In this document: positions 581 to 64,000 of the stretch, piece by piece
Layout: each line of letters opens with the position of its first letter
Position numbering within the stretch: position 1 is the first letter of the stretch
NCBI GenBank assembly: GCA_964017185.1
Contig: OZ024882.1
Span: 38,240,488 to 38,304,487, forward strand
Length of the DNA: 64,000 nucleotides
Direction: 5' to 3'
Origin: Rugalucina vietnamica
Taxonomy: Eukaryota > Mollusca > Bivalvia > Lucinida > Lucinidae
Notes under the pieces: generated by a model
The model's input: only the letters and a program-made list of their open reading frames with translations
What the model was told of the DNA's origin: nothing
The model's database searches: none
Position numbers and translations under genes: made by a program

Positions 581-651
581 TATAGAGGATATTCAAGTTT
601 TTGGAGTGAATATGAGTTTTATTTCATTGAGTGAAGTGAAAAAATTTTTTA

Positions 652-1199
652 TTTTATACTTTACAGTGAAACCCAATGTATATCAAAAACTTGATAAAAT
701 TGGTATTTTCATTGATATGAAATTTCACTGATATCAAATCTCACTGATATCAAAAGTCACTAGTGACTGATATCAGCCTATCAGATTTTTTGGATTACTT
801 CTGACGTTTCCATTTACTTGACGTCATTAAATGTGTCTCACTTCAGAAATACAAACGCCTATAACTCCGTTATTTATGAACAAAAACATAAAGTGTGGGT
901 ATTCATTTTCTTAGTTAGAACATAAGGAACAATGTGGTACCAAAATTATTCGTGTTTTCAAAAATTTTTTGATTTCGCATTTTCACCGCCTACCTTGTGC
1001 ATTGGAAAATGCCTGTGCATTGTATAAAATAAAAAGAAAATTAGCTTTTTTTCGGTGAATACCAAATATATTTCATCGAGTGAGTTGAAAACATTATAAT
1101 TTTCACTCGTGCTGCGCACTCGTGAAAATTCTGATGTTTTCAACTCACTCGATGAAATATATTTGGTATTCACCTCAAAAAAAGCAAATATCCTCTATA
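652..1199 (-). mobile_element. Beta hairpin MITE, copy 1
   Basis: This is a copy of the most abundant MITE here. Read on the minus strand it starts TATAGAGGATATTTGC and forms a long stem (arms of about 60-70 nt) capped by CGAGTGCGCAGCACGAG. It then carries a conserved middle and ends with a module of GATATCA/CACTAGTGAC palindromes finishing at CACTGTAAAGTATAAAAT. It interrupts the gamma element at a TA-containing site. Other copies lie at 13896, 16936, 31011, 37256, 37824 and 58146. Translations of the hairpin give similar short peptides on both strands, as expected for a palindrome, so they are not genes. Confidence 0.85.
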
Positions 1200-1535
1200 T
1201 ATTTCATGAGTGCCGAAGGCACGAATGAAATATGTAATTTTTCACTTCACGAGATGAAATAAAACTCATATTCACGACAAAAACTTGAATTTTCTTTTTA
1301 TGATATTGCATGTAGTCATTGTAACGTTGCGCGCTAAAGCATATGACGTCAAAATCTTAAATGACGTCATTACGTCACGTCATTACGTCGCTATTGTGTG
1401 TGAACGTTCATTGCGTCAACAATAGCATAGATTATAAAATTTAGTTATGTATAAATTAGAAATGAAACGGTGGAATCGTAATTTGCGTATTCCCAAATCT
1501 TATATTTTCACATGTGAAAATATAATTTTTTTTTA

Positions 1536-2071
1536 TAATGCAACAGCCCTACATATCGGCCTAATAAAGGGGGGTTCATAAATAGAAGCTTTATTCAGCT
1601 ACTGACCGAATAAAGGCCTTCTCTACTGACTAAATAAAGACCGCGTTGCAACTTTGTTTAACGCAACAAAAAGACGCGCGCCGGTGACGTCAAATTTAGT
1701 CACGTTTTGTGACGTCAATTTCCGCCATTGTTATGCAACGTTACGTAGATGAAACAATGGACAAGAAAAATTTGAATTATCAACAAAATCTACTGCAATG
1801 GTGGCGAATTTTGAGGAGTCGTTCTGCGGAGTGATTGCTGAGCTGTTGACTAAATAAACAAAATGGTGGAAAGCAGATCTCCTGACATCGGGTGAGTTTC
1901 TTCGCTTTCGTTGCATTATAAAGTGAATAACTACCCCGTGACCAAAAATAAACCGATTTATCACGCTCGGACCGTAAGCAGATGAAAGGGCTCGCTGAAA
2001 GCTCGCCCTTTCATCTGCTTACTAATCCTCACGTGATAAATCGGTTTATTTTTGGTCACGGGGTAGTTAAC
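1536..2071 (+). mobile_element. Delta hairpin MITE with TA target duplication
   Basis: The element is flanked by TA on both sides (1534-1535, 2072-2073) and sits inside the gamma copy, which resumes at CATATTTTCACATG. The 3' third is a very strong palindrome: arms near 1927-1965 and 2026-2069, with an inner stem of about 16 bp (AAGCAGATGAAAGGGC and its complement) around 1976-2020. The 5' part holds two TGACGTCA sites and a short ATG exon with a splice-donor consensus, listed separately. Only this copy is present in the window. Confidence 0.7.
1685..1897 (+). promoter_or_regulatory. Promoter and first-exon-like block of delta MITE
   Basis: Perfect TGACGTCA palindromes lie at 1685-1692 and 1710-1717. 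Downstream, ATG at 1863 in the context AACAAAATGG opens MVESRSPDIG and runs without a stop into GGGTGAGTTT, where GTGAGT at 1892-1897 is a consensus 5' splice site. The order CRE sites, ATG, short exon, donor is seen directly. That it works as a promoter and exon is inference. It could be the remnant of the parent transposase gene's start or a captured host first exon. Confidence 0.45.
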
Positions 2072-2165
2072 TACATATTTTCACATGTGAAAATATAACT
2101 TTTTCAAATATTGGTTATATTTAATACATATTTCTCTATATTTCTTCACTTGCCATATAATAAAT

Positions 2166-3982
2166 AGGTATTATGTCGAGCGTATTTGTAGTGCAACTTA
2201 TTGTAATTTCTTTTTCGTGAATTTTATAGAGTGCGCAGCTAACATCATTTCTTGAAGATTTTAAGATTAAAAATGTGCTCATCCGGAGTGCATTTTTTTT
2301 CATGTTAGCACTATTCTAGTCGACAAAAATGTCTCATTCAAGTTGGTTGAAACAATTTTATTTGTCCATTAATACATATACGTATATGTTACAAGCATAT
2401 TATATTGAGCATTTGGATTAGAAAGCAAGCTGTAATAGCTTATATATATCCTCTCCAAAGTTCAAGTTTGATCAAAATGAACATCAGCGTTTTGCATTTT
2501 GTACCCTGATATGTAATCTATCTGGATCATACAGCACCAAACAGGAAAGCATTCTCTGAACCTCTCTAGGCGGTGTATTGTTGCTTTCTTTTTTGTTCAG
2601 TATAAATTTTATGTATTATATGCTTTACACTGTACTTGCAACTTTCCATAACTTGCGCTCTTTATAGTCTATTCAAAAGATATACATAGGTATACTTCAT
2701 ACTGAATTAATTTTGATGGTTTAGTAGGATTGCTGCCATAGATAAAACAAGAAAACATTTTTATAATACTACCAAATTGTTCTAGGAACGTGTCATGGCG
2801 ATGCTTAAATCTTGATATTCATTTTTCATGTAGGACATATTTTCTGGCAACTCTTGAAAAGAAAGCTGCTAGGAGTTTTCTCTCAACGTGATGCTATATA
2901 AACAGGACAGTAGATAATTATTAGGAGGACATCGTGCATAACATCTGATCAATTATTTATTTCCGTAGACTGACTGTATTGGTGATGCAGCCTATTTCAT
3001 CATAATTGGACATTGCAGGAAATAGGATTTTCGGCATTAGGTAATACGTTCCAGTTTTAGAACATGATTTGTTTACCTTGCGACTGTCCAGCCATGCTCG
3101 ACTTCTGTGCAATACGTGATACCCACCCAAACAGGTTACAGTAGGTATAAATAACGTTTTAGACACATGAAACAATGTTAAGAGATTTGGTTGTAGGCTT
3201 AACTTTAAAATTGTAGGATGAGGACTTAACCGAACTGAAATCAGCAACGTTTTATAGAAGACAGACATTGAACAACATTTTAAGTGTTTATTTTATACTT
3301 ATACTTTATACTTAATCCCATGGCCAATCAAAGTCAAACTGAAAATAGAAATGAAGATCTTTAATAATCGTCAGAGTCACATGACCAAAATAACCATCAC
3401 GCCCATACATGTATCAGATGATATATTTAAAAATCGTCTACAGTATCGACAGTCCTGTTATCGTTAACCTTGGGACGACGTATCGTGGAAGCAAGCTCTA
3501 CAAAGATTATTTAAATGATATGTTGTAATGACCTAGATCTATTTTACGACCGCTTTAGTATTTACATTGGATAAACTGGGACAAACTCAAACTAAAGGAT
3601 ATTTTGTGCCAGGCAAAAGCTTTGAGCGTTTACACGTCCATTTGACCTCTGGCTTCTGTCAGTGCAAGAAAAAATGCCTCAAAACGGAAAAAATGCACGT
3701 AATCGCGTAACCCAAAACGTAATTATTCGTTAACGTCAATGTCTCATGGTGGGCATCCAAAGTCAGTTGATTTGGGCATGGAAAGTCAGTCAGTGAACGA
3801 ACAAATTAAGTTAGGGATCAAACTTTTAATCTGCAATTTCTAAAGCACTGCTCGTTAAATGAAACATTTCTATCATAAAGGTAATTCATTTTGTAAGCCT
3901 TATGTGCTTGAAGATTCAAGCTACTCTCCTTGCCCTAAAAAGACCACTTAAAACTGTAAGAAATTAAACCCATTTAGGCTTG
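2166..3982. other. 1.8 kb without recognisable features
   Basis: This stretch has no match elsewhere in the window and no recognised coding or RNA gene. The longest frame, 103 codons on the minus strand at 2957-3268, has no domain I recognise. It may be low-copy intergenic or intronic DNA, or an old unrecognised repeat. Confidence 0.5.
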
Positions 3983-6900
3983 TAGTCCATGTCGAATGGG
4001 AATCTCGTGCGATTTTTTTGACGATTTATGACGACCTATATAAAACTTATCTTTGGGGTGTATGGATAACATTAAACCTGTTCGTCGCACTTACATCCGC
4101 GCCAGTCGATTTATGACGTCATCAATATGGCGGCTATCTGCATATATATGAATTATTCGTATTTCCATCAAAATCAATTGAAAACATCTCAGTATTACTT
4201 ATTTTTCAAAGGAAATGTATGAAATGCATCTGTTTATACACACAATAGACGAATTAAGTCGATGGGATATTGCTTTATCCGGTCGTAAGTCCGTTCGCGC
4301 ATACGTTGGACATACGTTTTTTTTCTTCTAAAACCGCCCACAACCTAGGTACCCCGAGAGCAAATTTGAACTACCTTGTACCCCCAAGGACAATTTTTAT
4401 GGGTGCCAAATCATTCATTGAAACCAAAGAAATGCAAAGAATTTTTGTCCTCAAAGATAAACTCATTTACACTATGAAAAATTGCATGGTTTCCATGGCA
4501 ACCATTAACATGTTTCTTAAGCACGGGGATGTACATAGAAAATTGATCATATCTTCACTGTTTTTTATCTTATTCTACTGAACATGGTCTCATTTTAAAG
4601 CATGGTCATAGCCCTTTCTCTCGATGATAAGTATGCACAGTATCTTATTTGCATATACATTAATTTTAATGAAAAATGGCAAAAAATCTTTAAAAATCCA
4701 TATATTAACTAATTTCAGGCCCAAACTGTCATTGTGACAGTTTGTTATTGAACCAGTAATATCATCTGACAAATCTATTGATGATCTGGTCCTATATGAA
4801 AATTGTTTCATTTGCATATTCATGAAAATTAATAAAAAATTCAAAAATTGAGGAAAAATGAGGGAAAACATATCCATTGCAAGGTACTGCATATGTTATA
4901 AGACCTATCTTGCATCCCTGGGACAAAGTCTTAAGGCTGTAAGTGTTGTCAAAGGGACCTTCGTGATGCCATAAAATATTGTCATCAGCAATGAAAAAAA
5001 CTTTTGCATGATGTGAAATTACATAGTTTCCACACCGCTCCTCATGCGATTCTAAAGAACACGATGTACTTACAAAAACTTGTATCCCACCAATAGAATG
5101 CCCTAGAATACTATAATTGGTCCGATAGTGATGCGTGTACTTAACAGTTTAACCTTGATGCCTTATATTTAAATTATTGAATTTACTTATTCATGAAAAT
5201 TAATAAAAAATAGCATAATAAATGAAGAAGAATTGTGGAAAGATAGGGGTATACGTACAAAATCGCTTGTACCAGAGCTGTTTATCAACCCAGGATGCTG
5301 AAAGAGGTACCAAATGAATACTATGTTCTATGGTCCTGAACTATGATATAAGAATAATCTAATTTTCAATTTCATTAATTTTAATGAAAACCAAAGAAAT
5401 TTCAGAGAAAAGAATATGTAAACATTAATAAATAAACCTACAAAATGACTTGTATCTCGGCAATCATAAGCCATACAGTGCTGAAAAGGGCATCAAATGG
5501 TGTCCAGGGCAATATTATACTATCCTGTACTACAAGTTATGAGTCATTTGGTTTTTAGTTTTAAGAATATTAACAAAACCTTTTAAATTTAGAGAAAAAA
5601 TACGGAATAATTAAGGGTGTATACGTATAAACACGCATGTATCTCGGCTACTGAAAGACCTAGAGAGCTATAATTGGCGTCAAATGATTACTAGGACAAT
5701 GTTCTATAACCATATAATCCGCTACTTTTGCTGTATGGATATTACTGAGACCTTCATAAATAAAACTCAACGAAAAATGAACGGGTACACCAAACAAAAT
5801 CGTTCATATCTCAGCTGCCAACATCCTTAGAGTATTGAAAATGGTACCAACAGAATGTCAGGAGCATGCACAACTGCCATGTAGTCCGATAGCTTGAACA
5901 CGTTATTAATTTTTCTGAACGTTACGTAAAATTTCGAAAAATTGTGAAAATAACAGAAACTTGAAGGATGTGCTTCACCAAAATTAACTAAATCTTGCGC
6001 TTGCCAGAAAACAAGATTTATATATCTGAGCACACGGCGATAAAACATTGTCCTAACAATAAATTGGTGACATTTTGAGTTCTCTTCGGCTATTGGCCAC
6101 TGAGATATAAGCGATTTTGTTGATGGACCCCTTCATTTTTTACTGATTTTACTCTTATTTATTTTAAGATCTTTAATATCCTTACAACAAAAAATAACTG
6201 AACCTTGAGTAGCCGAAACCGTGGCATGGCCCATATACTTTCTCATCCATATGTTCACTGCTCTTAAAAGATCTCAGTTTTACTTTTTTTTACTTTATAT
6301 ACCCTATTATATTGTTACAGAACATAGTCATAGCAATCATCCATTAAGAATTATAGCTCCCTAAGGCTTTCAGTAGCCAAGATACGTGCGTTTTTTTTTT
6401 TACCTATGCCCCTTATTTTTTCGTATTGTTTTCTCTAAATTCAAAAGGTTTTGTTAATATTCTAAACCCTTAAAAACAAATGACCCACAATTTGTAGTAC
6501 ACCAAGTGATGGTATAATAATGCCCTAAACACCATTTGATGTCATTTTCAGCACCATATGACTTTTGATTGCCGATATACAAGTCCTTTTGTAGGTTTAC
6601 TCATTTAATTTTTTCTCTCTCTCAAATTTCCTAAGTTTTCATTAAAATTCATAAACTGGAAAATTGTTTTCATCATTATTCTCATACCATACTTTAGGGT
6701 CATAGTGCAATGTCATAGCATTCATTTGATACCCTTTTCATCATCCTGGGTTGATTAACAGCTCTTGTACAAGCGATTTTGTACATATACCCTCTATTTT
6801 TTCGACATTTTTCTCCATTTTTATGTTTGTTTTATTAATTTTCATGAATAAGTAAAGCCAGTGATTTAATATCAGGTAGCAAGGTTAAATTGTTAGATTC

Positions 6901-7037
6901 ATGCATCACTATCAGACCATTTATAGTATTCTAGAGCATTCTATCGATGGGATATAAGTATTTTTGTAAGTACATCCTATTCTTTAGAATCGCTTGAGGG
7001 GTGGTGTGGAAACTATGTAATTTTACATCATGCAAAT

Positions 7038-7038
<1 letters not shown>

Positions 7039-7075
<37 letters not shown>
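7039..7075 (+). repeat. Poly-T run in copy A
   Basis: About 37 consecutive T. The matching run in copy B is about 31 A at 20640-20669, and this explains much of the length difference between the two copies. Confidence 0.9.
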
Positions 7076-7607
7076 CATTGGTGAGGACATTATTTTATGG
7101 CATCACGGTGGTCACTCTCACACTACTGACAGTCTTTAGCCGCAATTTGTCCCAGGAATGGGATGCAAGATAGATTAGATCTTATAACCTAATACGTTAC
7201 AATGGGTATAGTTTTTCCCTCTCCTCACTTTTTGAAGTTTTATTAATATTCATGAATATGCAAATGAGATAATTTTCATACAGGACCAGGTCGTCAATAA
7301 ATTCGCCGTATGATATTACTGGCTCAATAACAAAGTGTCACAACTACAGTTTGGGTCTGAAATTAGTTCATTTATGGATTTTTAAAGATTTCTGTCATTT
7401 TTCATGTTTTCATGAAAATTGATGAATATGCTTATTATATAATTTGCATTACTACCATAAGAAAAAAGGCTATGTCTAAGCTTTAAAATAAGACCACGTT
7501 CAATAGTCTAGGATAAGTTACAGTGGAGATATGGTCAATTTTGTATGTACACCCCCATCCTCAAAAATCTCGTTAATGGTTGCCATGGAAACCGTGCCAT
7601 ATTTCAT

Positions 7608-8478
7608 TAAGCATTAATCGACCATCAAGCATCAATGAGGATGCAATCGACAGACTTCCACAGATAGAGTGCAATGTTCTGTTAGATGAATTTCCTACCG
7701 TTACGGAAACAAGAAAAGCAGTTCAACAACTATCATCTGGCAAAGCCCCAGGTGCAGATGCAATTCCTGCCGAGGTTTACAAGGCTGGGGGCTACCCATG
7801 GCAGAGAAACTGACAGAGTTGTTTCACTGTATGTGGAGAAAGGAGGCTATCCCACAAGAATTTAAGGATGCATCCATAATCCACCTATACAAGCGGAAAG
7901 GAAATCCTCAAGTCTGTGACAATCACAGAGGCATCTCCCTCCTATCAATTGCTGGGAAGATACTTGCAAAAATTCTGTTGAATCGTCTGAATGTTCATCT
8001 TGATCAGACGGGACTTATCCCAGAAAGTCAATGTGGATTCAGAAAAGACAGAGGGACAATAGACATGATCTTCACAGCAAGACAGCTTCAGGAGAAATGC
8101 CAAGAACAGAATGTAGATCTATACATGACGTTTGTTGAACTCACCAAAGCTTTTGACACTGTTAGTCGTGATGGACTCTGGAAAATCATGGCAAAGTTTG
8201 GCTGTCCACCCAGATTCATAGCAATGGTGCGGCAGTTTCATGATGGCATGCAGGTACGTGTGCAAAATGATGGAGAGTTCTCTGAACCATTTGAAGTAAC
8301 AAATGGGGTCAAACAAGGCTGTGTTCTGGCACCAACACTGTTCAGCATGATGTTTTCTGCCATGCTTATGGATGCTTTTCAGGACAGTGACACTGGTTTT
8401 CCAATCAGGTTTTTGATGGCAACATATTCAACCTCAGAAGGTTGCAAGCCAAAACTAAGGTCCAGACTGATGTGCTAG
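7608..8478 (+). pseudogene. LINE reverse transcriptase, N-terminal part (copy A)
   Basis: Encodes a pre-RT linker (SSGKAPGADAIPAEVYKAGG), then, after a one-base shift near 7790, a long RT segment with SLLSIAGKILAKILLNRL, GFRKDRGTIDMIF, TKAFDTVSRDGLWKIM and GVKQGCVLAPTLFSMMFSAM. These are standard RT motifs 1 to 5. In motif A the usual catalytic aspartate appears as glutamate (FVELTKAFD where relatives have FVDLTKAFD). A second shift in a T-run near 8415-8420 moves the reading to the next frame. Copy B shares both shifts. The copy is therefore a dead, 5'-truncated LINE ORF2. Confidence 0.9.
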
Positions 8479-9458
8479 ATGAGCTCCTCTATGCAGATGA
8501 TATGGATAAGAATGCCAGCACAGAGGCAAAAATGCAAAAGGCCATGGATCAAGTCTCACAGTCATGTGATAACTATGATCTCACAATCAGCACAAAAAAG
8601 ACAGAGGTCGTACACCAACCAGCGCCCGGAAAGCCATATAATGAACCAACCATCACTGTGAATGGGCAAAAACTGAAAGTTGTTGACAAGTTCACCTACC
8701 TGGGAAGCACTCTCTCCAGAGCAGTGCATATTGATGATGAGATCACTGCCAGAATTGCAAAGGCTAGTGTGGCATTCGGACGACTCCGTGCAAATGTCTG
8801 GGAGCGAAATGGAATCAAGCTTGACACCAAGCTGAAAGTCTACAAGGCTGTGGTACTGCCAATCCTCTTGTATGCATGTGAGACCTGGACAGTATACCAA
8901 CGCCATGCAAAGAGACTTAACCATTTCCACTTAAGCTGTTTGAGAAAGTTGTTAAAAATCAAGTGGCAGGACAAGATTCCAGACACAGAGGTCCTGACGA
9001 AAGCAGGGATGCAAAGCATGCATACAGTCTTAAAGCTAGCACAGCTAAGATGGACTGGCCATGTTATAAGAATGCCTGATGCGCGACTTCCAAAGAAAGT
9101 TTTCTATGGAGAACTACAGGAGGGAAAGCGCTCTCAAGGTGGCCAGAAGAAACGCTACAAAGACACCCTCAAAGCATCTCTGAAGGATTTCGAAATACCA
9201 ATGGGGTCCTGGGAACAGACTGCACAGGAGCGATCAAAGTGGCGAGGTCTCATCAACAAAGGAGCAGCTCTTTATGAAAAGAAGAGAATCTGTGAAGCTG
9301 AAAGAAAGCGAAGAGAGCGCAAAGCCAAAACAAATGTGCCACCATCAGACTCTATGACATTGACTTGCTCTACTTGCAACCGACAGTTTAGAGCCAGAAT
9401 TGGCCTAGTCAGCCATCAAAGAACTCACCAACACACATCAGCACTATTCAAGAAATAA
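8442..9458 (+). pseudogene. LINE reverse transcriptase, C-terminal part with C2H2 finger (copy A)
   Basis: A 338-codon open frame continues the RT. It begins with the palm motif LLYADDM (catalytic YADD), then LTISTKKTEVV, FTYLGSTLS and VLPILLYACETWT. This is followed by HFHLSCLRKLLKIKWQDKIP, the region before LRWTGHVIRM, and a lysine/arginine-rich linker. It ends in one C-x2-C-x12-H-x3-H zinc finger near residues 310-330, the usual nucleic-acid-binding tail of this LINE type. The ATG at 8442 lies inside the old ORF and is not a true start. The stop at 9456-9458 is probably the natural ORF2 stop. Confidence 0.9.
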
Positions 9459-10019
9459 TGATGGTCTTTCTCATTAGTGAGAGACGAACTATCAGGCCAT
9501 ATTTCATAGTGCAATTGAGCCTTTATCTTTGGGGACACGAATTATTTGTATTTCTAGGGTCCCAATAAATGATATGGCACCCATGAAAAATTGTCTTGGG
9601 GGATGCAAGGTAGGTCAAATTATCTACTGATGTACTATGTATAGTTTAGCGCTTTGTATGCAGATTTTGTCGTAACGTGGCTCATATTCTCAGTGCTACG
9701 CTCCTTGTGAGAGATATTTTTGTGCTAAAATAGCTTTGATAAATACAATTGGTAAAATCCATCCATTTAAAATCAGCGAGAAGCTGGAAATCAATTTTTA
9801 TCTAGCAAGCATAGTATGAAAATGGTTGATCAAAACGCATATTACGAGTGCGCTGGTCACCATTTTGATGACGTCATAGTTCAGCCCATATGCGGGTCTC
9901 AGGGCGACGAACTGGTTTAAATTGTTGCATATGCCCCAAAGTTTGATTTAAGGTAGGTCGTCATAAATCGTCATGAAATTCCCACGGGACGACTTTTTTG
10001 GCCCATTCGACATTGACTA

Positions 10020-11579
10020 TTGCTGGCATTAGAAATTATTACAATTGATGACTAACGCGCAACTTTGCATTTTTTTTCCTGAATTGGCGAAATTGAGTTC
10101 TTTTTATGGAATCAGTTCTTATGAAACTTTTATCACTTTAATTTTAGGGTAGTATGGTTTTAAGAAATAAAAACACAAGTAGGCAATGATCAGGAAAAGG
10201 CGCAATCAGAAAGAAATACACACTCTAAAAACCGAGGTGTGAAAAACTAAATTGACAATAAGGTACTTATACTTAGAAAACAAATCGTAAGCCGAGTGAG
10301 CAGCTAATCCCAACCGGCGGTCACCATCCAAAAATGGAAAATTTACTACATCAAAATCAAAATCAAAATCATCGTGTGTTTAAGACATCGTGTGTTTAAG
10401 ACAATGAAAATCATCGCGTGTTTAAGACAGTGAAAAGATGTGTTTAAGTGATGCGTGGGAAAATTGGTGGCACATGAAAGTGCCATAGAAATGCTTCTCC
10501 ACCAAATAAATCAAATCTTGATTTATTATCGGTAGGCCCAAAATTGCATACTCAAATGTTTGAACCCTAACTTTTTTTGCCCTGTATTGTTTGAGTATAA
10601 TTCGTATCTACATTAGCGTAAATAAGTATGTAATGTTGGTGTTCACATGAAATTCTATATGCCAATTGGGCCTCTCAGGAGGCTAAGATAACAGTAAACC
10701 GCCAAACACTGTCTGGTCATAAGGATCATCTTAATGGAGATATACATTTTACATCACGTCTGATTTTATATCATATCGTAGGGATTGTCCATGAAATTTA
10801 CTTTACCATCATTGTCTCCCTAACGCTGATTATCAAGTATCTGGTATTTTTTCAGCGGAAATAACAGTTTCTGGATTTTTTTTAGCGGAAATAACACTTT
10901 GTACAGATAGGTGGTAGTGGTAGTGGTTATGTTTGGTATGTACTTGGTTGCGGTCTTTATTGTTTGGATGGACAATATATTTGCCAACAGGGAGCCTTTA
11001 ATGTAGGGTTGACTGATTAAAAATCACTGACTGATTAAAAAAAGATAATATATGTCATTTAAAGGCAGAAAAAATAATGGATCATTCTAGGTGTGAGTCA
11101 GGCATTTTTCACTATTTTATGCAAAAGCTTTAATGTATGGAGCTGTCATTGAGCTTCAGAATCATAAGAGAGTAGAAACTGTTCCTTGCAATCAGTAACA
11201 CAGACATGTCGTTAGAACTAATGGTACTGGTAATATTTCACTAACCATTTCTGTGGGTCACATATTTTTGGCTTGCTTGGTAAAGCAATGTACTTTGTAT
11301 CAGTATCAAGGGCGGTATGTTTCCATGGTCTTTTCCATGTCAAATTCGTATCATATCCTAGTTTGCTTCGCTCAACCGGTGCGGCATTTAAGAAAATTAT
11401 GGAAGATGTACCGTTTAATCAGGCACGGCACATACACGGCAGGGCATCACGAGAACTGCCGCGAAATCTCGTAAACGTAATTTTGTTCCCTTGCCACATC
11501 CGGGACCAGTCGTGATAGTGACCTCGTCAAAAATCTCATAATTCAAGTTAAGTACTTTCGCCTATTTTATTTATTTATT

Positions 11580-11812: not shown

Positions 11813-12352
11813 TAGAGGATATTTGCTTTTTTGAGGTGAATACCAATTCTTGCATAGATATCTATGTTTGAGGCCGTTTTCGATTGGTCGAAAGCCGTGT
11901 TCAAACTGCAAAACCCATGTTCAAATCATGAAATTCACGTGCCGTTTGAACATGGGTTTTGGGCGACGTCATTGGTCAATGCGACGTGACGTCATGTGTT
12001 TCGTAGAAAAAAAATGGCCGACGTTGAAGAAGCTCCGCTGTTTTCGATGAGTTTTTACGTTGAAATGTTATTTTCAAGAGATTTTAAGTGGATTAAAGTG
12101 AAAATGCAAGAATAGCGATCAACCATGGTTTGTTTCAGTGTTCAAACATTCGCTGGATCACTCGGAAGGTGTTTGAACACGCGGCCTGCGGCCTTGTGTT
12201 CAAACACCTTCCTCGTGATCCATCGAATGTTTGAACACTGAAAACCATGGTTGATCCCTATAATATATTTCATCGAGTGAGTTGAAAACATCAGAATTTT
12301 CACGAGTGCGCAGCACGAGTGAAAATTTTTGTTTTCAACTCACGAGATGAAA
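11812..12352 (+). mobile_element. Beta MITE left module, split by epsilon MITE
   Basis: Beta sequence runs to ACCAA at 11846, is interrupted by the epsilon element (11847-12260), and resumes at ATATATTTCATCGAG through the CGAGTGCGCAGCACGAG hairpin to 12352. The remaining beta body is missing; a gamma fragment follows directly. Confidence 0.75.
11847..12260 (-). mobile_element. Epsilon MITE, copy 1
   Basis: On the minus strand the element starts TAGGGATCAACCATGG and ends TATGCAAGAA. It contains a long stem capped by a CCGCAGG-type GC core, with arms built from GTTCAAACATTCG and GTGTTTGAACAC, and a promoter-like block with TGACGTCA at 11987-11994. Two further copies are at 31812 and 44774. It lacks ordinary terminal inverted repeats; both ends instead carry small palindromes. 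In this copy the exon ATG (12014) is kept but the donor reads ATGAGT. Confidence 0.8.
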
Positions 12353-14095: not shown

Positions 14096-15420
14096 CGCTT
14101 GGCGATGACGTCATCGATACATTACCTGTGAACTCACGGGTACAAAGTCAATAAATACACAGACCCAATACATATAATTGTGCTGGTAAATAATAACTAA
14201 ATATGTCTAAAATTGTTAATACAAGTTGAAATCAACGCTGAATTAAATAAAATAAATTTAACTCTGAAAAAGTATTATCCGCCATCTGTCTATAAAGTTA
14301 TTCTGGTAAGATTTGTTTTAAACTCGGAAAACTGAATGATCCACAGAGGAGTTACATGTAATTGGATAACTTTATCCAATGTATATTCACTTATTATATC
14401 CAGCTCACATTTTTCTAGATTTGTTTTTATCTAACGGCAGCTTAGATTTCACGATGTTATTTTGTAATTATGATTATCACATACGTAGACATATATTTCC
14501 AGCGATAACCCCAAATTTGCATATGTGATAATGTGTTTCCCGCCCGCAGGTTATCAGCACAGCGGGCTGATAACCGGAAATCATGCATTTTGAATGGATA
14601 GAGGTTATCATGCCCGCATGTGACGTCGCGCGACGGAATATGTGACGTCAAGCGAAGTGACGTTACGTCATTTTAACAGCGCCATTTTCTTTTTCTACAG
14701 AGAAATCGACGAGTTTTTCATAAGATTCTTTGAATAGAAGATTTTCAAGATGTGATAAACAGATTATAACACGGGCATTTTGGTCATCGCCCTTAGTATC
14801 AACCCTCGACCATTATCAGCCCTCGAGCTAAAGCTCTCGGGCTCGATAATGGAGTCTCGGGTTGATACTGCGGGCGATAACCAAAATGCCCATGTGATAA
14901 TCTCTAATTATTTAATATTAATTTAATATGAAAATAGATAGAAATGTACAATAACCGTGCCGTTGAAGTTGTCATGTGAGCATGTTCGGTATGTTATTCA
15001 AAATCTTAAATATGTCTCCTCCAAAAACAGATCCTACAAAATGACAGCAGATAATTGTCATAAAATTTTAATGTAATTTGAGGCTGAAGTGCCTGAAAAT
15101 ATGTGCATATTAAATAAAGAGAGATCAAAGCCGCCCGCGCTTGCCGAAAAATCAAAATATTTTACTATAAATAAACACGGAAATATTGCGCTATTCACGA
15201 TATTTTCCTTCCAAATTCTAATCTAAATATATGCATTCTTGAAACAATCTTTCCTCATTACACAGCAAAACTTTTTTTAAGATTTGGGCGTTTTGGGTCA
15301 TTTGTGCAAATAAAATATAACGTATACTGGGTTTTAATAAAGCCGCCATTACTGATTTGTACCCGTGAGAGTGACCCGGATGCTGGCTGATGACATCACG
15401 CCATCTTTTCCGATAATCGG
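14096..15420 (+). mobile_element. Zeta insertion with 5-bp target duplication
   Basis: Bounded by AATTC direct repeats (14091-14095 and 15421-15425). The two ends show imperfect inverted similarity (GATGACGTCATC against GTGATGTCATCAGC, and a shared ACGGGTACAAA). No transposase is seen. It contains the eta palindromic element. Class II origin is likely; the family is unknown. Confidence 0.55.
14465..14910 (+). mobile_element. Eta hairpin element
   Basis: Ends are inverted (TAATTATGATTATCACAT and the complement of TAATTAGAGATTATCACAT). Inside are GATAACC-rich palindromes, one capped around GAGCTAAAGCTC, and a cluster of TGACGTCG, TGACGTCA (14643-14650) and TGACGTTACGTCA. The architecture matches the other hairpin MITEs. 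It is nested in zeta, which is nested in beta. Confidence 0.65.
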
Positions 15421-17452: not shown

Positions 17453-17695
17453 AAATGACGTTTTCTCGTTTCATCACATGCGAAAAGCAGTCAGTAAGTC
17501 ATTTCTAATAAGTTTTTTTTTTCAAAACTTCAAATACATACGGAACAGCTGAAACAACCCAGTTTAAATTGGTAAAATTGCAGTAATTGTCTCTGGCTCC
17601 ATGTTGCCAGATTTATAGGCCACTGGTGAGGCTTGAGTAGCCGAAAATGCCATTAGTGTCTACTTGCAATATCATTGCCCAGTACGTCGTTGCTG
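17453..17695. other. Short unrecognised flank of copy B
   Basis: No gene. The phrase CTTGAGTAGCCGAAA at about 17622 also occurs inside the 6-kb element, so part of this may be an old copy into which copy B inserted. Confidence 0.4.
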
Positions 17696-18254
17696 TAGTC
17701 AATGTCGAATGGGCCAAAAAAGTCGTCCCGTGGGAATTTCATGACGATTTATGACGACCTACCTTAAATCAAACTTTGGGGCATATGCAACAATTTAAAC
17801 CAGTTCGTCGCCCTGAGACCCGCATATGGGCTGAACTATGACGTCATCAAAATGGTGACCAGCGCACTCGTAATATGCGTTTTGATCAACCATTTTCATA
17901 CTATGCTTGCTAGATAAAAAATGATTTCCAGCTTCTCGCTGATTCTAAATGGATGGATTTTACCAATTGTATTTATCAAAGCTATTTTAGCACAAAAATA
18001 TCTCTCACAAGGAGCGTAGCACTGAGAATATGAGCCACGTTACGACAAAATCTGCATACAAAGCGCTAAACTATACATAGTACATCAGTAGATAATTTGA
18101 CCTACCTTGCATCCCCCAAGACAATTTTTCATGGGTGCCATATCATTTATTGGGACCCTAGAAATACAAATAATTCGTGTCCCCAAAGATAAACTCAATT
18201 GCACTATGAAATATGGCCTGATAGTTCGTCTCTCACTAATGAGAAAGACCATCA

Positions 18255-19271
18255 TTATTTCTTGAATAGTGCTGATGTGTGTTGGTGAGTTCTTTGATGG
18301 CTGACTAGGCCAATTCTGGCTCTAAACTGTCGGTTGCAAGTAGAGCAAGTCAATGTCATAGAGTCTGATGGTGGCACATTTGTTTTGGCTTTGCGCTCTC
18401 TTCGCTTTCTTTCAGCTTCACAGATTCTCTTCTTTTCATAAAGAGCTGCTCCTTTGTTGATGAGACCTCGCCACTTTGATCGCTCCTGTGCAGTCTGTTC
18501 CCAGGACCCCATTGGTATTTCGAAATCCTTCAGAGAGGCTTTGAGGGTGTCTTTGTAGCGTTTCTTCTGGCCACCTTGAGAGCGCTTTCCCTCCTGTAGT
18601 TCTCCATAGAAAACTTTCTTTGGAAGTCGCGCATCAGGCATTCTTATAACATGGCCAGTCCATCTTAGCTGTGCTAGCTTTAAGACTGTATGCATGCTTT
18701 GCATCCCTGCTTTCGTCAGGACCTCTGTGTCTGGAATCTTGTCCTGCCACTTGATTTTTAACAACTTTCTCAAACAGCTTAAGTGGAAATGGTTAAGTCT
18801 CTTTGCATGGCGTTGGTATACTGTCCAGGTCTCACATGCATACAAGAGGGTTGGCAGTACCACAGCCTTGTAGACTTTCAGCTTGGTGTCAAGCTTGATT
18901 CCATTTCGCTCCCAGACATTTGCACGGAGTCGTCCGAATGCCACACTAGCCTTTGCAATTCTGGCAGTGATCTCATCATCAATATGCACTGCTCTGGAGA
19001 GAGTGCTTCCCAGGTAGGTGAACTTGTCAACAACTTTCAGTTTTTGCCCATTCACAGTGATGGTTGGTTCATTATATGGCTTTCCGGGCGCTGGTTGGTG
19101 TACGACCTCTGTCTTTTTTGTGCTGATTGTGAGATCATAGTTATCACATGACTGTGAGACTTGATCCATGGCTTTTTGCATTTTTGCCTCTGTGCTGGCA
19201 TTCTTATCCATATCATCTGCATAGAGGAGCTCATCTAGCACATCAGTCTGGACCTTAGTTTTGGCTTGCAA
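18255..19271 (-). pseudogene. LINE reverse transcriptase, C-terminal part with C2H2 finger (copy B)
   Basis: A 338-codon frame with the YADD palm motif and a terminal C-x2-C-x12-H-x3-H finger, matching copy A residue for residue except for one visible change (VLPTLLYACE for VLPILLYACE). The frame's own ATG is internal to the original ORF2. Confidence 0.9.
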
Positions 19272-20105
19272 CCTTCTGAGGTTGAATATGTTGCCATCAA
19301 AAACCTGATTGGAAAACCAGTGTCACTGTCCTGAAAAGCATCCATAAGCATGGCAGAAAACATCATGCTGAACAGTGTTGGTGCCAGAACACAGCCTTGT
19401 TTGACCCCATTTGTTACTTCAAATGGTTCAGAGAACTCTCCATCATTTTGCACACGTGCCTGCATGCCATCATGAAACTGCCGCACCATTGCTATGAATC
19501 TGGGTGGACAGCCAAACTTTGCCATGATTTTCCAGAGTCCATCACGACTAACAGTGTCAAAAGCTTTGGTGAGTTCAACAAACGTCATGTATAGATCTAC
19601 ATTCTGTTCTTGGCATTTCTCCTGAAGCTGTCTTGCTGTGAAGATCATGTCTATTGTCCCTCTGTCTTTTCTGAATCCACATTGACTTTCTGGGATAAGT
19701 CCCGTCTGATCAAGATGAACATTCAGACGATTCAACAGAATTTTTGCAAGTATCTTCCCAGCAATTGATAGGAGGGAGATGCCTCTGTGATTGTCACAGA
19801 CTTGAGGATTTCCTTTCCGCTTGTATAGGTGGATTATGGATGCATCCTTAAATTCTTGTGGGATGGCCTCCTTTCTCCACATACAGTGAAACAACTCTGT
19901 CAGTTTCTCTGCCATGGGTAGCCCCCAGCCTTGTAAACCTCGGCAGGAATTGCATCTGCACCTGGGGCTTTGCCAGATGATAGTTGTTGAACTGCTTTTC
20001 TTGTTTCCGTAACGGTAGGAAATTCATCTAACAGAACATTGCACTCTATCTGTGGAAGTCTGTCGATTGCATCCTCATTGATGCTTGATGGTCGATTAAT
20101 GCTTA
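19235..20105 (-). pseudogene. LINE reverse transcriptase, N-terminal part (copy B)
   Basis: Linker plus RT motifs as in copy A, with the same frameshift near the KAGG/LPMAEK junction, the same shift in the T-run before the palm, and the same FVELTKAFD replacement. One residue differs (HDGMQARVQ for HDGMQVRVQ). Shared breaks show that both copies descend from one already-dead insert. Confidence 0.9.
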
Positions 20106-20637
20106 ATGAAATATGGCACGGTTTCCATGGCAACCATTAACGAGATTTTTGAGGATGGGGGTGTACATACAAAATTGGCCATATCTCCACTGTAACTTAT
20201 CCTAGACTATTGAACGTGGTCTTATTTTAAAGCTTAGACATAGCCTTTTTTCTTATGGTAGTAATGCAAATTATATAATAAGCATATTCATCAATTTTCA
20301 TGAAAACATGAAAAATGACAGAAATCTTTAAAAATCCATAAATGAACTAATTTCAGACCCAAACTGTAGTTGTGACACTTTGTTATTGAGCCAGTAATAT
20401 CATACGGCGAATTTATTGACGACCTGGTCCTGTATGAAAATTATCTCATTTGCATATTCATGAATATTAATAAAACTTCAAAAAGTGAGGAGAGGGAAAA
20501 ACTATACCCATTGTAACGTATTAGGTTATAAGATCTAATCTATCTTGCATCCCATTCCTGGGACAAATTGCGGCTAAAGACTGTCAGTAGTGTGAGAGTG
20601 ACCACCGTGATGCCATAAAATAATGTCCTCACCAATG

Positions 20638-20670
<33 letters not shown>

Positions 20671-23600
20671 ATTTGCATGATGTAAAATTACATAGTTTCC
20701 ACACCACCCCTCAAGCGATTCTAAAGAATAGGATGTACTTACAAAAATACTTATATCCCATCGATAGAATGCTCTAGAATACTATAAATGGTCTGATAGT
20801 GATGCATGAATCTAACAATTTAACCTTGCTACCTGATATTAAATCACTGGCTTTACTTATTCATGAAAATTAATAAAACAAACATAAAAATGGAGAAAAA
20901 TGTCGAAAAAATAGAGGGTATATGTACAAAATCGCCTGTACAAGAGCTGTTAATCAACCCAGGATGATGAAAAGGGTATCAAATGAATGCTATGACATTG
21001 CACTATGACCCTAAAGTATGGTATGAGAATAATGATGAAAACAATTTTCCAGTTTATGAATTTTAATGAAAACTTAGGAAATTTGAGAGAGAGAAAAAAA
21101 TAAATGAGTAAACCTACAAAAGGACTTGTATATCGGCAATCAAAAGTCATATGGTGCTGAAAATGACATCAAATGGTGTTTAGGGCATTATTATACCATC
21201 ACTTGGTGTACTACAAATTGTGGGTCATTTGTTTTTAAGGGTTTAGAATATTAACAAAACCTTTTGAATTTAGAGAAAACAATACGAAAAAATAAGGGGC
21301 ATACGTAAAAAAAACGCACGTATCTTGGCTACTGAAAGCCCTAGGGAGCTATAATTCTTAATGGATGATTGCTATGACTATGTTCTGTAACAATATAATA
21401 GGGTATATAAAGTAAAAAAGTAAAACTGAGATCTTTTAAGAGCAGTGAACATATGGATGAGAAAGTATATGGGCCATGCCGCGGTTTCGGCTACTCAAGG
21501 TTCAGTTATTTTTTGTTGTAAGGATATTAAAGATCTTAAAATAAATAAGAGTAAAATCAGTAAAAAATGAAGGGGTCCATCAACAAAATCGCTTATATCT
21601 CAGTGGCCAATAGCCGAAGAGAACTCAAAATGTCACCAATTTATTGTTAGGACAATGTTTTATCGCTGTGTGCTCAGATATATAAATCTTGTTTTCTGGC
21701 AAGCGCAAGATTTAGTTAATTTTGGTGAAGCACATCCTTCAAGTTTCTGTTATTTTCACAATTTTTCGAAATTTTACGTAACGTTCAGAAAAATTAATAA
21801 CGTGTTCAAGCTGTCGGACTACATGGCAGTAGTGCATGCTCCTGTCATTCTGTTGGTACCATTTTCAATACTCTAAGGATGTTGGCAGCTGAGATATGAA
21901 CGATTTTGTTTGGTGTACCCGTTCATTTTTCGTTGAGTTTTATTTATGAAGGTCTCAGTAATATCCATACAGCAAAAGTAGCGGATTATATGGTTATAGA
22001 ACATTGTCCTAGTAATCATTGGACGCCAATTATAGCTCTCTAGGTCTTTCAGTAGCCGAGATACATGCGTGTTTATACGTATACACCCTTAATTATTCCG
22101 TATTTTTTCTCTAAATTTAAAAGGTTTTGTTAATATTCTTAAAACTAAAAACCAAATGACTCATAACTTGTAGTACAGGATAGTATAATATTGCCCTGGA
22201 CACCATTTGATGCCCTTTTCAGCACTGTATGGCTTATGATTGCCGAGATACAAGTCATTTTGTAGGTTTATTTATTAATGTTTACATATTCTTTTCTCTG
22301 AAATTTCTTTGGTTTTCATTAAAATTAATGAAATTGAAAATTAGATTATTCTTATATCATAGTTCAGGACCATAGAACATAGTATTCATTTGGTACCTCT
22401 TTCAGCATCCTGGGTTGATAAACAGCTCTGGTACAAGCGATTTTGTACGTATACCCCTATCTTTCCACAATTCTTCTTCATTTATTATGCTATTTTTTAT
22501 TAATTTTCATGAATAAGTAAATTCAATAATTTAAATATAAGGCATCAAGGTTAAACTGTTAAGTACACGCATCACTATCGGACCAATTATAGTATTCTAG
22601 GGCATTCTATTGGTGGGATACAAGTTTTTGTAAGTACATCGTGTTCTTTAGAATCGCATGAGGAGCGGTGTGGAAACTATGTAATTTCACATCATGCAAA
22701 AGTTTTTTTCATTGCTGATGACAATATTTTATGGCATCACGAAGGTCCCTTTGACAACACTTACAGCCTTAAGACTTTGTCCCAGGGATGCAAGATAGGT
22801 CGTATAACATATGCAGTACCTTGCAATGGATATGTTTTCCCTCATTTTTCCTCAATTTTTGAATTTTTTATTAATTTTCATGAATATGCAAATGAAACAA
22901 TTTTCATATAGGACCAGATCATCAATAGATTTGTCAGATGATATTACTGGTTCAATAACAAACTGTCACAATGACAGTTTGGGCCTGAAATTAGTTAATA
23001 TATGGATTTTTAAAGATTTTTTGCCATTTTTCATTAAAATTAATGTATATGCAAATAAGATACTTTGCATACTTATCATCGAGAGAAAGGGCTATGACCA
23101 TGCTTTAAAATGAGACCATGTTCAGTAGAATAAGATAAAAAACAGTGAAGATATGATCAATTTTCTATGTACATCCCCGTGCTTAAGAAACATGTTAATG
23201 GTTGCCATGGAAACCATGCAATTTTTCATAGTGTAATTGAGTTTATCTTTGAGGACAAACATTCTTTGCATTTCTTTGGTTTCAATGAATGATTTGGCAC
23301 CCATAAAAATTGTCCTTGGGGGTACAAGGTAGTTCAAATTTGCTCTCGGGGTACCTAGGTTGTGGGCGGTTTTAGAAGAAAAAAACGTATGTCCAACGTA
23401 TGCGCGAACGGACGTACGGCCGGATAAAGCAATATCCCATCGACTTAATTCGTCTATTGTGTGTATAAACAGATGCATTTCATACATTTCCTTTGAAAAA
23501 TAAGTAATACTGAGATGTTTTCAATTGATTTTGATGGAAATACGAATAATTCATATATATGCAGATAGCCGCCATATTGATGACGTCATAAATCGACTGG

Positions 23601-44535: not shown

Positions 44536-44773
44536 TGATACACCGGTAATCGTGATGCATGGTTTCCATAGCAACCGTTGTTAAATAGTAGTCATGCCCG
44601 AGCAGCAAAATTGTACAAATTATGTTTGTCTATCTAACTGTACGAGTTTATTTAAGCTAATTATTTATAAAATGAGGACATGACGGCACTTTTCCGAGAA
44701 CTTCGTACTGTCAATGGACAAAGTAGTCGTGGTTTTACCATATATGGGTACGGTGGCCTTGTGACCTTGAATA

Positions 44774-45198
44774 TAGGGATCAACCATGGTTTTCAGTGTT
44801 CAAACATTCGATGGATCACGAAGAAGGTGTTTGAACACAAGGCCGCAGGCCGCGTGTTCAAACACCTTCCGAGTGATCCAGCGAATGTTTGAACACTGAA
44901 ACAAACCATGGTTGATCGCTATTCTTGCATTTTCACTCCAATCCACTTAAAATCTCTTGAAAATAACATTAACAACGTAAAAACGCACCGAAAACCGCGG
45001 AGCTTCTTCAACGTCGGCAATTTTGTTTCTATGAAATACATGACGTCACGTCACTTTGACCAATGACGTCGGCCAAAACCCATGTTCAAACGGCACGTGA
45101 ATTTCATGATTTGAACATGGGTTTTGCGGTTTGAACACGGCTTTCGACCAATCAAAAACGGCTTCAAATAGCTATGCGCATAGATAGCTATGCAAGAA
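44774..45198 (+). mobile_element. Epsilon MITE, copy 3
   Basis: 425 bp, flanked by TA (44772-44773, 45199-45200). The long stem with the GGCCGCAGGCC core is well preserved. In the promoter/exon block TGACGTCA (45041-45048) remains but the ATG and the donor have both changed. Confidence 0.88.
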
Positions 45199-45289
45199 TA
45201 CCTACATGTACTTACATTAGCAGAAACTTACATTAGCAGAATAGCTCTTGTCTGGATTGTGTATCCTCTTGTCCGCCATTTTGGTTCAC

Positions 45290-48640: not shown

Positions 48641-48661
48641 TGAACCATTAGATGTTCATCT

Positions 48662-49045
48662 GTGTTCATACTTCCATGAACAACATTGCGTCACGCGACG
48701 TGACGTAATCCAAACTTGACGTCAAAAAACATGAATCTCGCCAATCTGATTGGACGTTGTAAACGTCGACGCCGATCCGCTGTTTGAACACACATTGTGT
48801 GTAGATTTTCTGTTTGCTGGTAAATGTAACCGCCTTGGTGATTTTTCAACAAGAGATAGAGAGAAATGAATGTAAATATAAGCAATAAGTTTAATTTTTC
48901 TGTTGTTCATGGAGCTATGAACCGCAGTGGGTCGCTAGCAAAGCTTACATGAACCCCTTCGGGGTTCATTCACTTTGCACGCGACCCACTGCGGTTCATA
49001 GCTCCATGAACACCAGAAAAATGAAATTCATTTCTTAAGAGAACA
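48662..49045 (+). mobile_element. Theta hairpin element, left member of an inverted pair
   Basis: Starts GTGTTCATACTTCCATGAAC. It has TGACGTCA at 48717-48724, an ATG-started short frame, and a strong stem of GTTCATGGAGCTATGAACCG with an inner AACCCCTTCGGGGTT hairpin and GACCCACTGCGG arms. It is mirrored by 49159-49572. Confidence 0.75.
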
Positions 49046-49158
49046 TGTTCTTTTAAATTATAATCATCATATATATCATGGCGGCAACCTTGGATGTCAT
49101 TTTCCTCCATTTATATTAGTGATATGGAGTCATAACTAAAATCAAAGGACTTCATTTA

Positions 49159-49572
49159 AGAAATGAATTTCATTTTTCTGGTGTTCATGGAGCTATGAAT
49201 CGGAGTGGGTCGCGTGCTAGCGACCCACTGCGGTTCATTTTTTTTTTAACCGCAGTGGGTCGCTAGCAAAGTTTACATGAACCCCGAAGGGGTTCATTCA
49301 CTTTGCACACGACCCACTGCGGTTCATAGCTCCATGAACATCAGAAAAATTAAACTCATTGCTTATATTTATATTAATTTCACTCTATCGCTTGTTGAAA
49401 AATCATCAAGGCGATCACATTTACAAGGAAATAGATCATTTACACACAGTGTGTATTCAAACAGCGGAACGGCGTCGACGTTTACAACGTCCAATCAGAT
49501 TGGCGAAAGCATTGTATTTTGACGTCAAGTTTGACGTCGCGTGACACGGTGTTGTTCATGGAAGTATGAACA
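49159..49572 (-). mobile_element. Theta hairpin element, right member
   Basis: Reverse copy of 48662-49045 with an extra internal palindrome GACCCACTGCGGTTCAT / AACCGCAGTGGGTC at about 49220-49262. TGACGTCA is at 49520-49527. It ends in TTCATGGAAGTATGAACAC. The 113-bp spacer between the two members contains a CATGGCGGC word. Confidence 0.75.
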
Positions 49573-50115
49573 CATGAACACATAATTTCTAATCAATACC
49601 ACCTAATATACAGATAAGTGTAATGTTTTCAGTATTTAAAGTGAACCAACTGAGATAACGCTTATAATTGTCATTAAATATTGCATTCTGGCAGCCATCT
49701 TGGAAGCATTCTGGATACACTTGACCATACTAGCAGGAAATGGTCTTTGACATTCAGTTTATAAAATTATGCCAAATATTTGTAAATAAAATATGCCCTG
49801 AGTGAAAATAGAAGCTTTTTTATGAGCAGCCCATATATTAAGCCGCCATCTTGGACGCCATCTTGATTTTCTCAAAATGCTCAATGATGCCAAGGTGGAA
49901 TCAGTCAGATTCTTAAATGGTAACATCTAAGCAACAAGAATCAGCCAAGAAAAAAAGTTTGAACCACATTTCCGGGTCAAGCTGAATATCTGCAGGACTA
50001 GAAGGGGGAACCTAGGTCACATGACCAAGATGGCCGCCATACCCATATATGATAAAAACCCCTACAAAAATCTTTTTTCTCCAGAACCGGTGGACCAATT
50101 TCAACTAGAACTAGG

Positions 50116-51491: not shown

Positions 51492-51556
51492 CGGTTAGGG
51501 CTAGGGTTAGGTTTAGGTTTAGGGTTAGGTTTAGGGCTGGGCTAGGGTTAGGGTTA
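51492..51556 (+). repeat. Telomere-like TTAGGG tract 1
   Basis: Mixed GGTTAGGG, GGTTTAGG and GGGCTAGG units. TTAGGG is the usual metazoan telomere repeat, so this is an interstitial telomere-like tract. Confidence 0.8.
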
Positions 51557-52047: not shown

Positions 52048-52117
52048 CGGTTAGGTTTAGGGTTAGGGTTAGTGTGTGGTTAGGTTTAGGGCTGGGCTAG
52101 GGTTAGGGTTAGGGTTA
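52048..52117 (+). repeat. Telomere-like TTAGGG tract 2
   Basis: Same kind of tract, with four nearly clean GGGTTA units at the end and the same TTGACATACAGATTGGGAC flank as tract 1, so the two are duplicates. Confidence 0.8.
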
Positions 52118-62507: not shown

Positions 62508-62549
<42 letters not shown>

Positions 62550-62757: not shown

Positions 62758-62804
<47 letters not shown>

Positions 62805-63045
62805 TTCTCTTGAAATCCATATACATTGAAATGCGTAAATAAAAGTCGATGGTCTGAGTGTATGTTAAGATGGATAATTCGTAGCCGAATGATTCGAGAA
62901 ATATGACAGGTAACATCGAAATGTATTTTTCTTTATTAAGATTAATACGTTTAACTCACTTGCCTGCATTTTAAATCAACAACAGAATTCTTTCATCGCA
63001 CAGCCATTTTATTTTCGTCCATCGATTAAAAGTTATACCATGGTT
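61719..63045. repeat. Kappa and lambda repeats, second region
   Basis: 61840-61985 is nearly identical to 63495-63640. 62206-62345 is a lambda copy. 62748-62862 is a (TTTA)n tract plus kappa block. A T run of about 39 is at 62511-62549. The palindrome GATCAAACGA...TCGTTTGATC at 61857-61898 is part of the kappa unit. No gene recognised. Confidence 0.6.
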
Positions 63046-63286
63046 TAAGGATTGACTGAGCGGTTAAGAGTGCTGTTTCTTAATCACTCGATCATCTCAC
63101 CGCTGTGTCTGGTGTGGGTTCGAGCCCCGCACTGGCCATATGTGAGACAAGCCAAGATCTGCTTGCAGGTGTTCCAGGTGGTTTTTTCTCGGGGTTCTCC
63201 CATTTTCGCCCACCTACTGATTGGCCCGTCTAATATGAGCTTGAATAATCTTGAAAGGGACGTAAAACTGAATAAGAATAAGAATC
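63046..63286 (+). mobile_element. tRNA-SINE, diverged full-length copy
   Basis: A box ACTGAGCGGTTAAGAG, B box GTGGGTTCGAGCCCC, body TGTGAGACAAGCC, GAAAGGGACGTAAAACTGAA tail and AATAAG repeats. It differs from the 50116 copy at many positions and includes a small insertion before the B box, so it is older or from another subfamily. Confidence 0.88.
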
Positions 63287-63329
63287 TATAAATATTTTGC
63301 TTATTGTCTGTAGTACAAATTGTAGTACA

Positions 63330-63731
63330 CTAAAAACTTAACTAAGCTCACGATAATATTTTAAGTTTGTCTGAGAGTATTCTCAGATATTAACTTTTAC
63401 ATTTCCTGTAACTACCTGGATATTAACAAGTGGCCGATTATTCGGTACATGCATAAGCAATTTTGTAGCTATCCGTAAGCATTTACGTGTCGTATGTCTG
63501 AAGTCGAAGATCAAACGAATCGACACAATATGATCGTTTGATCATTATGAACTGCAACTGCAGTGATTTACTTGAAATCGCCATAAACCACTCAATAGAT
63601 ACCATATTGTCTCAGTTCCAGCCATGTCACAAAAAAGACAATGCATCAGAAAACGGCATACATTCAATACGGTTTATCCAGGAAGACCGCATACTTATTC
63701 TGAACAAAGCCTCCCGTGTGCTTATTTAATA
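63330..63731 (+). repeat. Kappa blocks, third region
   Basis: 63333-63420 matches 56795-56880, and 63495-63640 matches 61840-61985. The end of this block is cut by the third copy of the 6-kb element. Confidence 0.65.
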
Positions 63732-64000
63732 TAGTCCATGTCGAATGGGAATCTCGTGCGATTTTTTTGACGATTTATGACGACCTATATAAAACTTATC
63801 TTTGGGGTGTATGGATAACATTAAACCTGTTCGTCGCACTTACATCCGCGCCAGTCGATTTATGACGTCATCAATATGGCGGCTATCTGCATATATATGA
63901 ATTATTCGTATTTCCATCAAAATCAATTGAAAACATCTCAGTATTACTTATTTTTCAAAGGAAATGTATGAAATGCATCTGTTTATACACACAATAGACG
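63732..64000 (+). mobile_element. 6-kb foldback/TIR element, copy C (cut by window end)
   Basis: Starts TAGTCCATGTCGAATGGG and by eye is identical to 3983-4251 and to the complement of 23451-23719 over all 269 bases available. TGACGTCA at 63863-63870. The orientation is that of copy A. Its left flank (TTTAATA) does not match those of A or B. Confidence 0.85.

Follow-up and report, generated by a model that had tools for sequence, protein, structure and literature searches.

CRE octamers and their carrier elements in the window

We analyzed a 64-kb stretch of the genome of the bivalve Rugalucina vietnamica (contig OZ024882.1, positions 38,240,488 to 38,304,487; hereafter the window, numbered from its first base) for the perfect cAMP response element (CRE), which here always means the exact octamer TGACGTCA, and for the transposable elements that carry it. 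The octamer was found 33 times against 1.17 occurrences expected when the window's own sequence is modelled as a second-order Markov chain, in good agreement with the original prediction, made from the letters of the window, of about 34 copies where chance would give about one. Clustering on 60-bp flanks placed the 33 CREs in nine sequence contexts, F1 to F9, with 11 sites in F1, six in F2, five in F4, three in F5, two each in F3, F8 and F9, and one each in F6 and F7. The window is not typical of the genome, its CRE density being about six times the genome mean.

Six of the nine families (F1, F2, F3, F5, F7, and F9) have a hairpin of 125–150 nt with values of −48 to −68 kcal/mol (z of −13 to −21), and none of 200 shuffles equalled any of the six. 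The best full copy of F1 lies on the forward strand at 37256–37824, has CREs at 37402–37409 and 37445–37452, and ends in CTCTAT after a forward-strand terminal hairpin at 37668–37815 with a TC/TC internal loop at its tip; further F1 CREs are at 819, 15598, 15641, 17291, 31157, 31200, 46481, 59174, and 59217. F2, on the reverse strand at 30522–31008, has CREs at 30752 and 30734, a hairpin at 30530–30679 and the same CTCTAT end, its 5′ end not being fixed on many copies; F2 CREs are also present at 1344, 1362, 12510, and 12528. F3 (1532–2074, forward strand; CREs at 1685 and 1710, hairpin at 1926–2072) sits within an F2 copy. The three F5 copies are at 31808–32239 within a duplicated stretch (reverse strand; CRE at 32080, hairpin at 31810–31957), at 11846–12262 (forward strand; CRE at 11987) and at 44772–45200 (reverse strand; CRE at 45041). 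F7 (14474–14907, forward strand) has its CRE at 14643 among five half sites, a hairpin at 14758–14906 and the end CTCTAA, and F9 consists of two units facing each other (48647–49586), with CREs at 48717 and 49520 and a hairpin at 48898–49022.

The other three contexts are of different build, F8 being a tandem unit, and the CRE is therefore not confined to the hairpin group. F4 is a 6-kb element with inverted ends (3983–10021, forward strand) that has a CRE inside each end, at 4114 and 9869; a second copy (17694–23720) has CREs at 17839 and 23581, and a partial copy beginning at 63731 has one at 63863. Within the element (3983–10021 and 17694–23720), the long inner arms are about 78% alike and lie in opposite orientation, and the F4 open frames match reverse transcriptase (RVT_1). 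F6 is a candidate element, an insertion with inverted ends that splits an F1 copy (14096–15420, forward strand; AATT on both sides); its left end has the CRE at 14106, its right end holds TGATGTCA, and F7 is nested inside it. F8 comprises two tandem 247-bp units (36573–37066, forward strand) with CREs at 36690 and 36937, and a similar context was found elsewhere in the genome, at L012:3871. The window also has telomere-like GGTTAG repeats, within the chromosome, at 51493–51556 and 52049–52117; scanning the window for tRNA genes and Rfam families gave no match.

CRE excess with each family counted once

To count each family about once, later copies of each repeat were masked, and 60 dinucleotide shuffles served as controls. 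Masked in this way the window retains 13 CREs in 38.7 kb (nine if counted by family; the two F8 units and the two F9 arms are still among the 13), where the shuffles average 0.35 and give three at most. A genome sample of 170 kb, made up of 10 kb from base 20,000,001 of each of the 17 large contigs (loci L009–L025), has 14 CREs unmasked, where 2.31 are expected; masking leaves 12 in 128.6 kb (shuffle mean 1.28, highest 4). With window and sample pooled and masked, 19 CREs were found against 1.9, the highest shuffle having five. In the masked window, the masked sample and the two pooled, the CRE ranks first of all 64 CG-centred palindromes; this ranking leaves out loci L001–L008, which were fetched because they hold a CRE, and an earlier ranking that included them was set aside.

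Across the whole genome (1.09 Gb) there are 92,384 CREs, compared to 16,471 occurrences of the reversed pattern and 19,024 of the anagram palindrome TCACGTGA, which is 4.9 times rarer than the CRE. The original prediction was to be given up if the enrichment disappeared once each family was counted once; the excess persists in window and sample alike. Given the family-once counts and the anagram control, neither chance nor CpG bias nor copy number can fully explain the excess. Such an excess of perfect CREs over controls is one of the features by which a functional CREB/ATF promoter may be judged.

Three further observations concern octamers of this kind. The most over-represented palindromic octamer in the sample is TACATGTA, with 42 occurrences against 5.5 expected. 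The doubly deaminated form of the CRE, TGATATCA, occurs 22 times in the window against 3.2 expected and sits in 16-base repeats of F1 copies, for example at 37314–37361. At G000 C1:1020844-1035927, 16 listed CREs lie about 1,005 bases apart, so that a tandem array also bears the site.

CRE position, half sites and candidate first exons

The CREs lie at similar depths in several of the families. Measured from the 5′ end, they are at 146 and 189 nt in F1, 153 and 178 nt in F3, about 151 nt in F5 and about 169 nt in F7, with those of F4 lying 131 and 143 nt inside its two ends. They are also accompanied by half sites. In the six hairpin families there are 3–5 half sites per 80 bp, where 0.108 are expected and a lone CRE would give two. 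Across 25 CRE contexts (seven of which come from the CRE-selected loci L001–L008, and among which F4 and F8 are counted twice) there are 15 extra non-palindromic TGACGT sites against 2.4 expected, and ATGGC[GC] occurs near the CRE 10 times against 3.6. In F4 an inward-pointing ATGG lies five bases inside each CRE. The ATGGC near the CRE may alternatively be a YY1 site instead of a start codon, and its direction relative to the CRE is not constant.

In two families the sequence downstream of the CRE has the form of a short first exon. In F5 an ATG 20 nt past the CRE opens a 33-nt frame that ends at a splice donor (32021–32059, reverse strand; ATG at 32059, donor at 32026–32021), and the donor GGTGAGT is kept in 18 of the 23 copies matched by a pattern requiring the ATG. 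Similarly, in F3 an ATG 145 nt past the second CRE starts a stretch of 29 nt that runs up to the donor GTGAGT (1863–1897, forward strand; donor at 1892–1897), which is kept in 19 of 21 matches to a pattern that again requires the ATG (one copy being counted twice and one unmatched). The arrangement is rare: a search of the two strands of the 170-kb sample for ATGG[CT] followed by 15–45 nt and GTGAGT gave a single occurrence. No candidate first exon was seen in the families other than F3 and F5.

Terminal hairpins, element ends and mode of movement

The hairpin, of about 150 nt, is 3′-terminal in F1, F2, F3, F5, and F7. These five families have no sequence likeness to each other, stems included, yet they have in common the hairpin and a CTAT or CTAA end, CTAT in F1, F2, F3, and F5 and CTAA in F7 alone. 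A scan of the window and sampled loci for hairpins with a 2 × 2 mismatch near the tip returned eight sequence clusters: TC/TC in F1, F2, F3, and a further hairpin family at L032:1406 (genome contig C11), GC/TT in F5, and other letters in three single cases. F7 was missed by the scan but folds with TC/TC, so that four of the five 3′-terminal hairpins have this loop. The claim of the original prediction that at least eight unrelated families carry the site is thus right as to the number of contexts, of which there are nine, but only in part as to independence, since F1, F2, F3, F5, and F7 have one terminus and one hairpin design. This common design may reflect recognition by one group of Rep proteins. 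Hairpin and CRE are not always found together, because the 620 bases read around the L032:1406 hairpin contain no CRE, and the other hairpins of the sample have neither a TC/TC-type loop nor a CRE nearby. At L032:2022 the hairpin tip itself contains TGACGTCA, and L025:6906-9879 is an array of about 53-base tandem repeats that form hairpins.

Genome searches returned 2,723 first-look candidates for F1, 1,976 for F5, 885 for F3 and 781 for F7, of which the best 40 were scored in each family search. The 39 best F1 genome matches (setting aside the window's own and one neighbour of 95%) are of 98–99% identity, and the F1 copies within the window differ more. F3 begins TTTATAAYGC and ends TTATTTACTAT, as judged from 20 genome copies and the window copy, the latter altered at its end; F5 begins TTCTTGC and ends CTATA. 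With TTTATAA in F3, TTCTTGC in F5, and TTATCAC in F7, none of the 5′ starts is the TC of Helitrons. Extra 5′ Ts were seen in eight of 21 F3 matches (one copy counted twice), one of 10 F7 matches and one of 20 F5 matches. In 19 of 20 F5 copies an A precedes the element, and after the element the first base varies and the second is a T in all 20; the same N-T 3′ flank was found in nine of nine F7 matches and 20 of 21 F3 matches (one copy counted twice).

Among the hairpin families, target duplication was assessed in F3 and F5, and it is absent from both. The flanks of the 20 F3 genome copies are unrelated and none has a target site duplication. Two window F5 insertions, compared to uninterrupted repeats, have a flank overlap of 3 bp or less and no target duplication, and the 18 further F5 copies read have none either. 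In addition, two arrays contain three exact head-to-tail F5 joints, in which CTATA runs directly into TTCTTGC. F3, F5, and F7 were also found as inverted pairs. Head-to-tail joints and the lack of target duplication are marks of Helitron rolling-circle movement, and F1, F2, F3, F5, and F7 probably behave like non-autonomous rolling-circle elements, as F9 perhaps does. A possible source of the necessary proteins is present in the genome, where the Helitron-like Rep domain (PF14214) has 150 scored matches among 409 candidates, many in open frames of more than 2,000 codons.

A proposed transposon-borne promoter and its alternatives

The reading that we set foremost, and to which we give an even chance, takes the CREs for components of compact, promoter-like modules borne by transposons, with a promoter of CREB/ATF type retained in the 5′ leader. 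Under this reading a host bZIP factor of CREB/ATF type would bind the unmethylated CRE in the 5′ part of the element. Transcription would then be driven into the element, and in the parent element it would have served that element's own gene; F3 and F5 would still have the beginning of a first exon, with its splice donor, downstream of the CRE. The hairpin elements would be moved by the Helitron-like Rep proteins of the genome. Here we infer the binding of the factor, the transcription and its tissue. With regard to the factor, the genome has one CREB-type pKID match, covering positions 5–23 of 41 (19 of 41 profile positions); this accords with the CREB part of the original prediction, which had named CREB, ATF and CREM, but the match is single and there is no sign of a separate CREM gene. 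A promoter role cannot simply be assumed, because a CRE bias to gene starts, found in vertebrates, is reported to be absent in sea squirt, fly, and worm (PMC1796609, as far as the available part of that paper goes).

Several observations weigh against a retained promoter. The CREs of F2 (249 and 267 nt) and F9 (70 nt) depart from the 146–189-nt position, and the 25 CRE contexts show no enrichment of CCAAT (14 against 11.0 expected) or TATAAA (7 against 7.7), CCAAT having accordingly been rejected as a common partner of the CRE. The combination of ATG and donor is found in two of the nine families, with copy counts that rest on a pattern requiring the ATG. Among the F5 copies of the window, three in all, the ATG has been lost from one and the donor from two. 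In F7, 26 of 28 copies retain the CRE, a value that 32% of octamers equal or exceed, and the F5 CRE is intact in 21 of 21 copies, yet many other octamers, including those with CG, are equally intact. F7 shows no special retention that would indicate selection on the CRE within families. Finally, the CRE at L020:4253 has a context that a genome search found to be single-copy.

That site is one of seven, among the 14 sample CREs, whose contexts do not recur in the sequence compared (window and sampled loci), and one of three of these seven for which a genome search was made. Of the other two, the CRE at L015:2021 lies at the margin of an old repeat, where five of 18 diverged genome matches span it, and that at L014:6522 is between repeat fragments and is covered by none of the 39 other scored matches. 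The expectation that nearly all CREs lie in mobile elements fits the window but apparently not the sample, with half of its sites in contexts not met elsewhere and one of them single-copy. The octamer is in excess outside the window's families as well, as would be expected if host promoters use the CRE.

Descent of F1, F2, F3, F5, and F7 from a single rolling-circle ancestor already equipped with the CRE cluster, with only the CRE, the hairpin layout and the ends still recognizable, is a substantial possibility, if short of an even chance. The TC/TC-loop hairpin layout of F1, F2, F3, and F7, the common end, the N-T 3′ flank of F3, F5, and F7, and the similar CRE depth are all consistent with it; the GC/TT loop of F5, the CRE regions, which have no alignable sequence between families at the BLAST settings used, and the presence of the CRE in the differently built F4, F6, and F8 are not. 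If this descent is correct, the CRE was gained far fewer than eight times, and a promoter role would still be compatible with it. Helitrons capture pieces of host genes, and the ATG and splice donor of F3 and F5, along with the CRE excess in sample contexts beyond the window families, could mean that the elements took up host promoters and first exons, the CRE being included because host promoters use it. We consider such capture unlikely, as the similar CRE depth in several families is better explained by a fixed part of the element than by random capture.

It is more doubtful still that a host factor docks at the CRE for replication or transposition rather than for transcription. The placement of the CRE near element ends would suit that role (131–189 nt from the end in F1, F3, F4 at both ends, F5, and F7, and 11 bp inside one end in F6), but the octamer is a known transcription-factor site, accompanied in F3 and F5 by the ATG and donor, and we know of no such role of the CRE. 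Least credible is that a few chance CREs were multiplied along with their elements by copy number and sequence bias: F1 and F2 do account for 11 and six of the 33 window sites, but in window and sample alike none of the 60 shuffles reaches the family-once count, other CG palindromes are not raised to the same degree, and the CREs lie in half-site clusters.

To return to the transposon-borne promoter, the suggestion in the original prediction of a shared expression strategy, conjecturally in the germline or under stress, gains from the CRE-specific excess with each family counted once, from the half sites and from the similar CRE depth, and is weakened by the families not all being independent, by the ordinary retention in F7 and by CREs outside transposons. 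Should the CREs be functional, many transposon families would respond simultaneously to one host signalling factor, and every insertion would add a CREB-responsive start, to which F3 and F5 would also add a splice donor able to feed downstream exons. One genome would then suffice to test how short non-coding transposons that are unlike in sequence reach expression by a common route. More tentatively, and as less likely than not, we propose that an undescribed rolling-circle group, known by structure alone (the ~150-nt hairpin, the TC/TC tip loop, the CTAT/CTAA end and the N-T target), has had a promoter of CREB type in its 5′ leader and may thereby have spread CRE start sites by the thousand over one animal genome, those of two families being supplied with a first exon and donor. 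The common hairpin tip provides a means of recognizing by structure a transposon group that was left unjoined by sequence search.

Comparison with known systems

No paper on the CRE in Helitron-like or mollusc elements was found among the titles and abstract openings of the open-licence literature searched. Compared to the canonical Helitrons, as described in the part of PMC4067079 available, the elements are alike in the lack of target duplication, the 3′ hairpin, the CTAA end of F7 and the Rep domains in the genome. They differ in beginning with TT instead of TC, in ending with CTAT (F1, F2, F3, and F5) instead of CTRR, in a target that is not plain A^T, and in a hairpin far larger than the 16–20 nt of Helitrons. 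Assignment to the canonical Helitrons was rejected on the 5′ TC, the 3′ CTRR and the A^T target.

The Helentron-associated interspersed elements (HINE), with DINE-1 and Cg_HINE of the Pacific oyster, are likewise short, non-coding and present in many copies, lack target duplication and have a 3′ palindrome, and their varying number of 5′ Ts is seen in F3 (PMC4067079 and PMC7492417, both in the parts available, whose descriptions of HINE mention no CRE). The known palindromes are short, however, compared to the ~150-nt hairpin, and the HINE target is TT, where the 3′ flank here is N-T; with this target absent and the palindrome far larger, assignment to HINE was rejected as well. For the use of a CRE by a transposon there is a precedent by experiment in the promoters of the mouse IAP long terminal repeat (LTR), according to the portion of PMC9729108 at hand. 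The IAP is a mammalian LTR retrotransposon, whereas the elements of the window are DNA elements of several builds for which the evidence is that of sequence; both have a perfect TGACGTCA within a mobile element.

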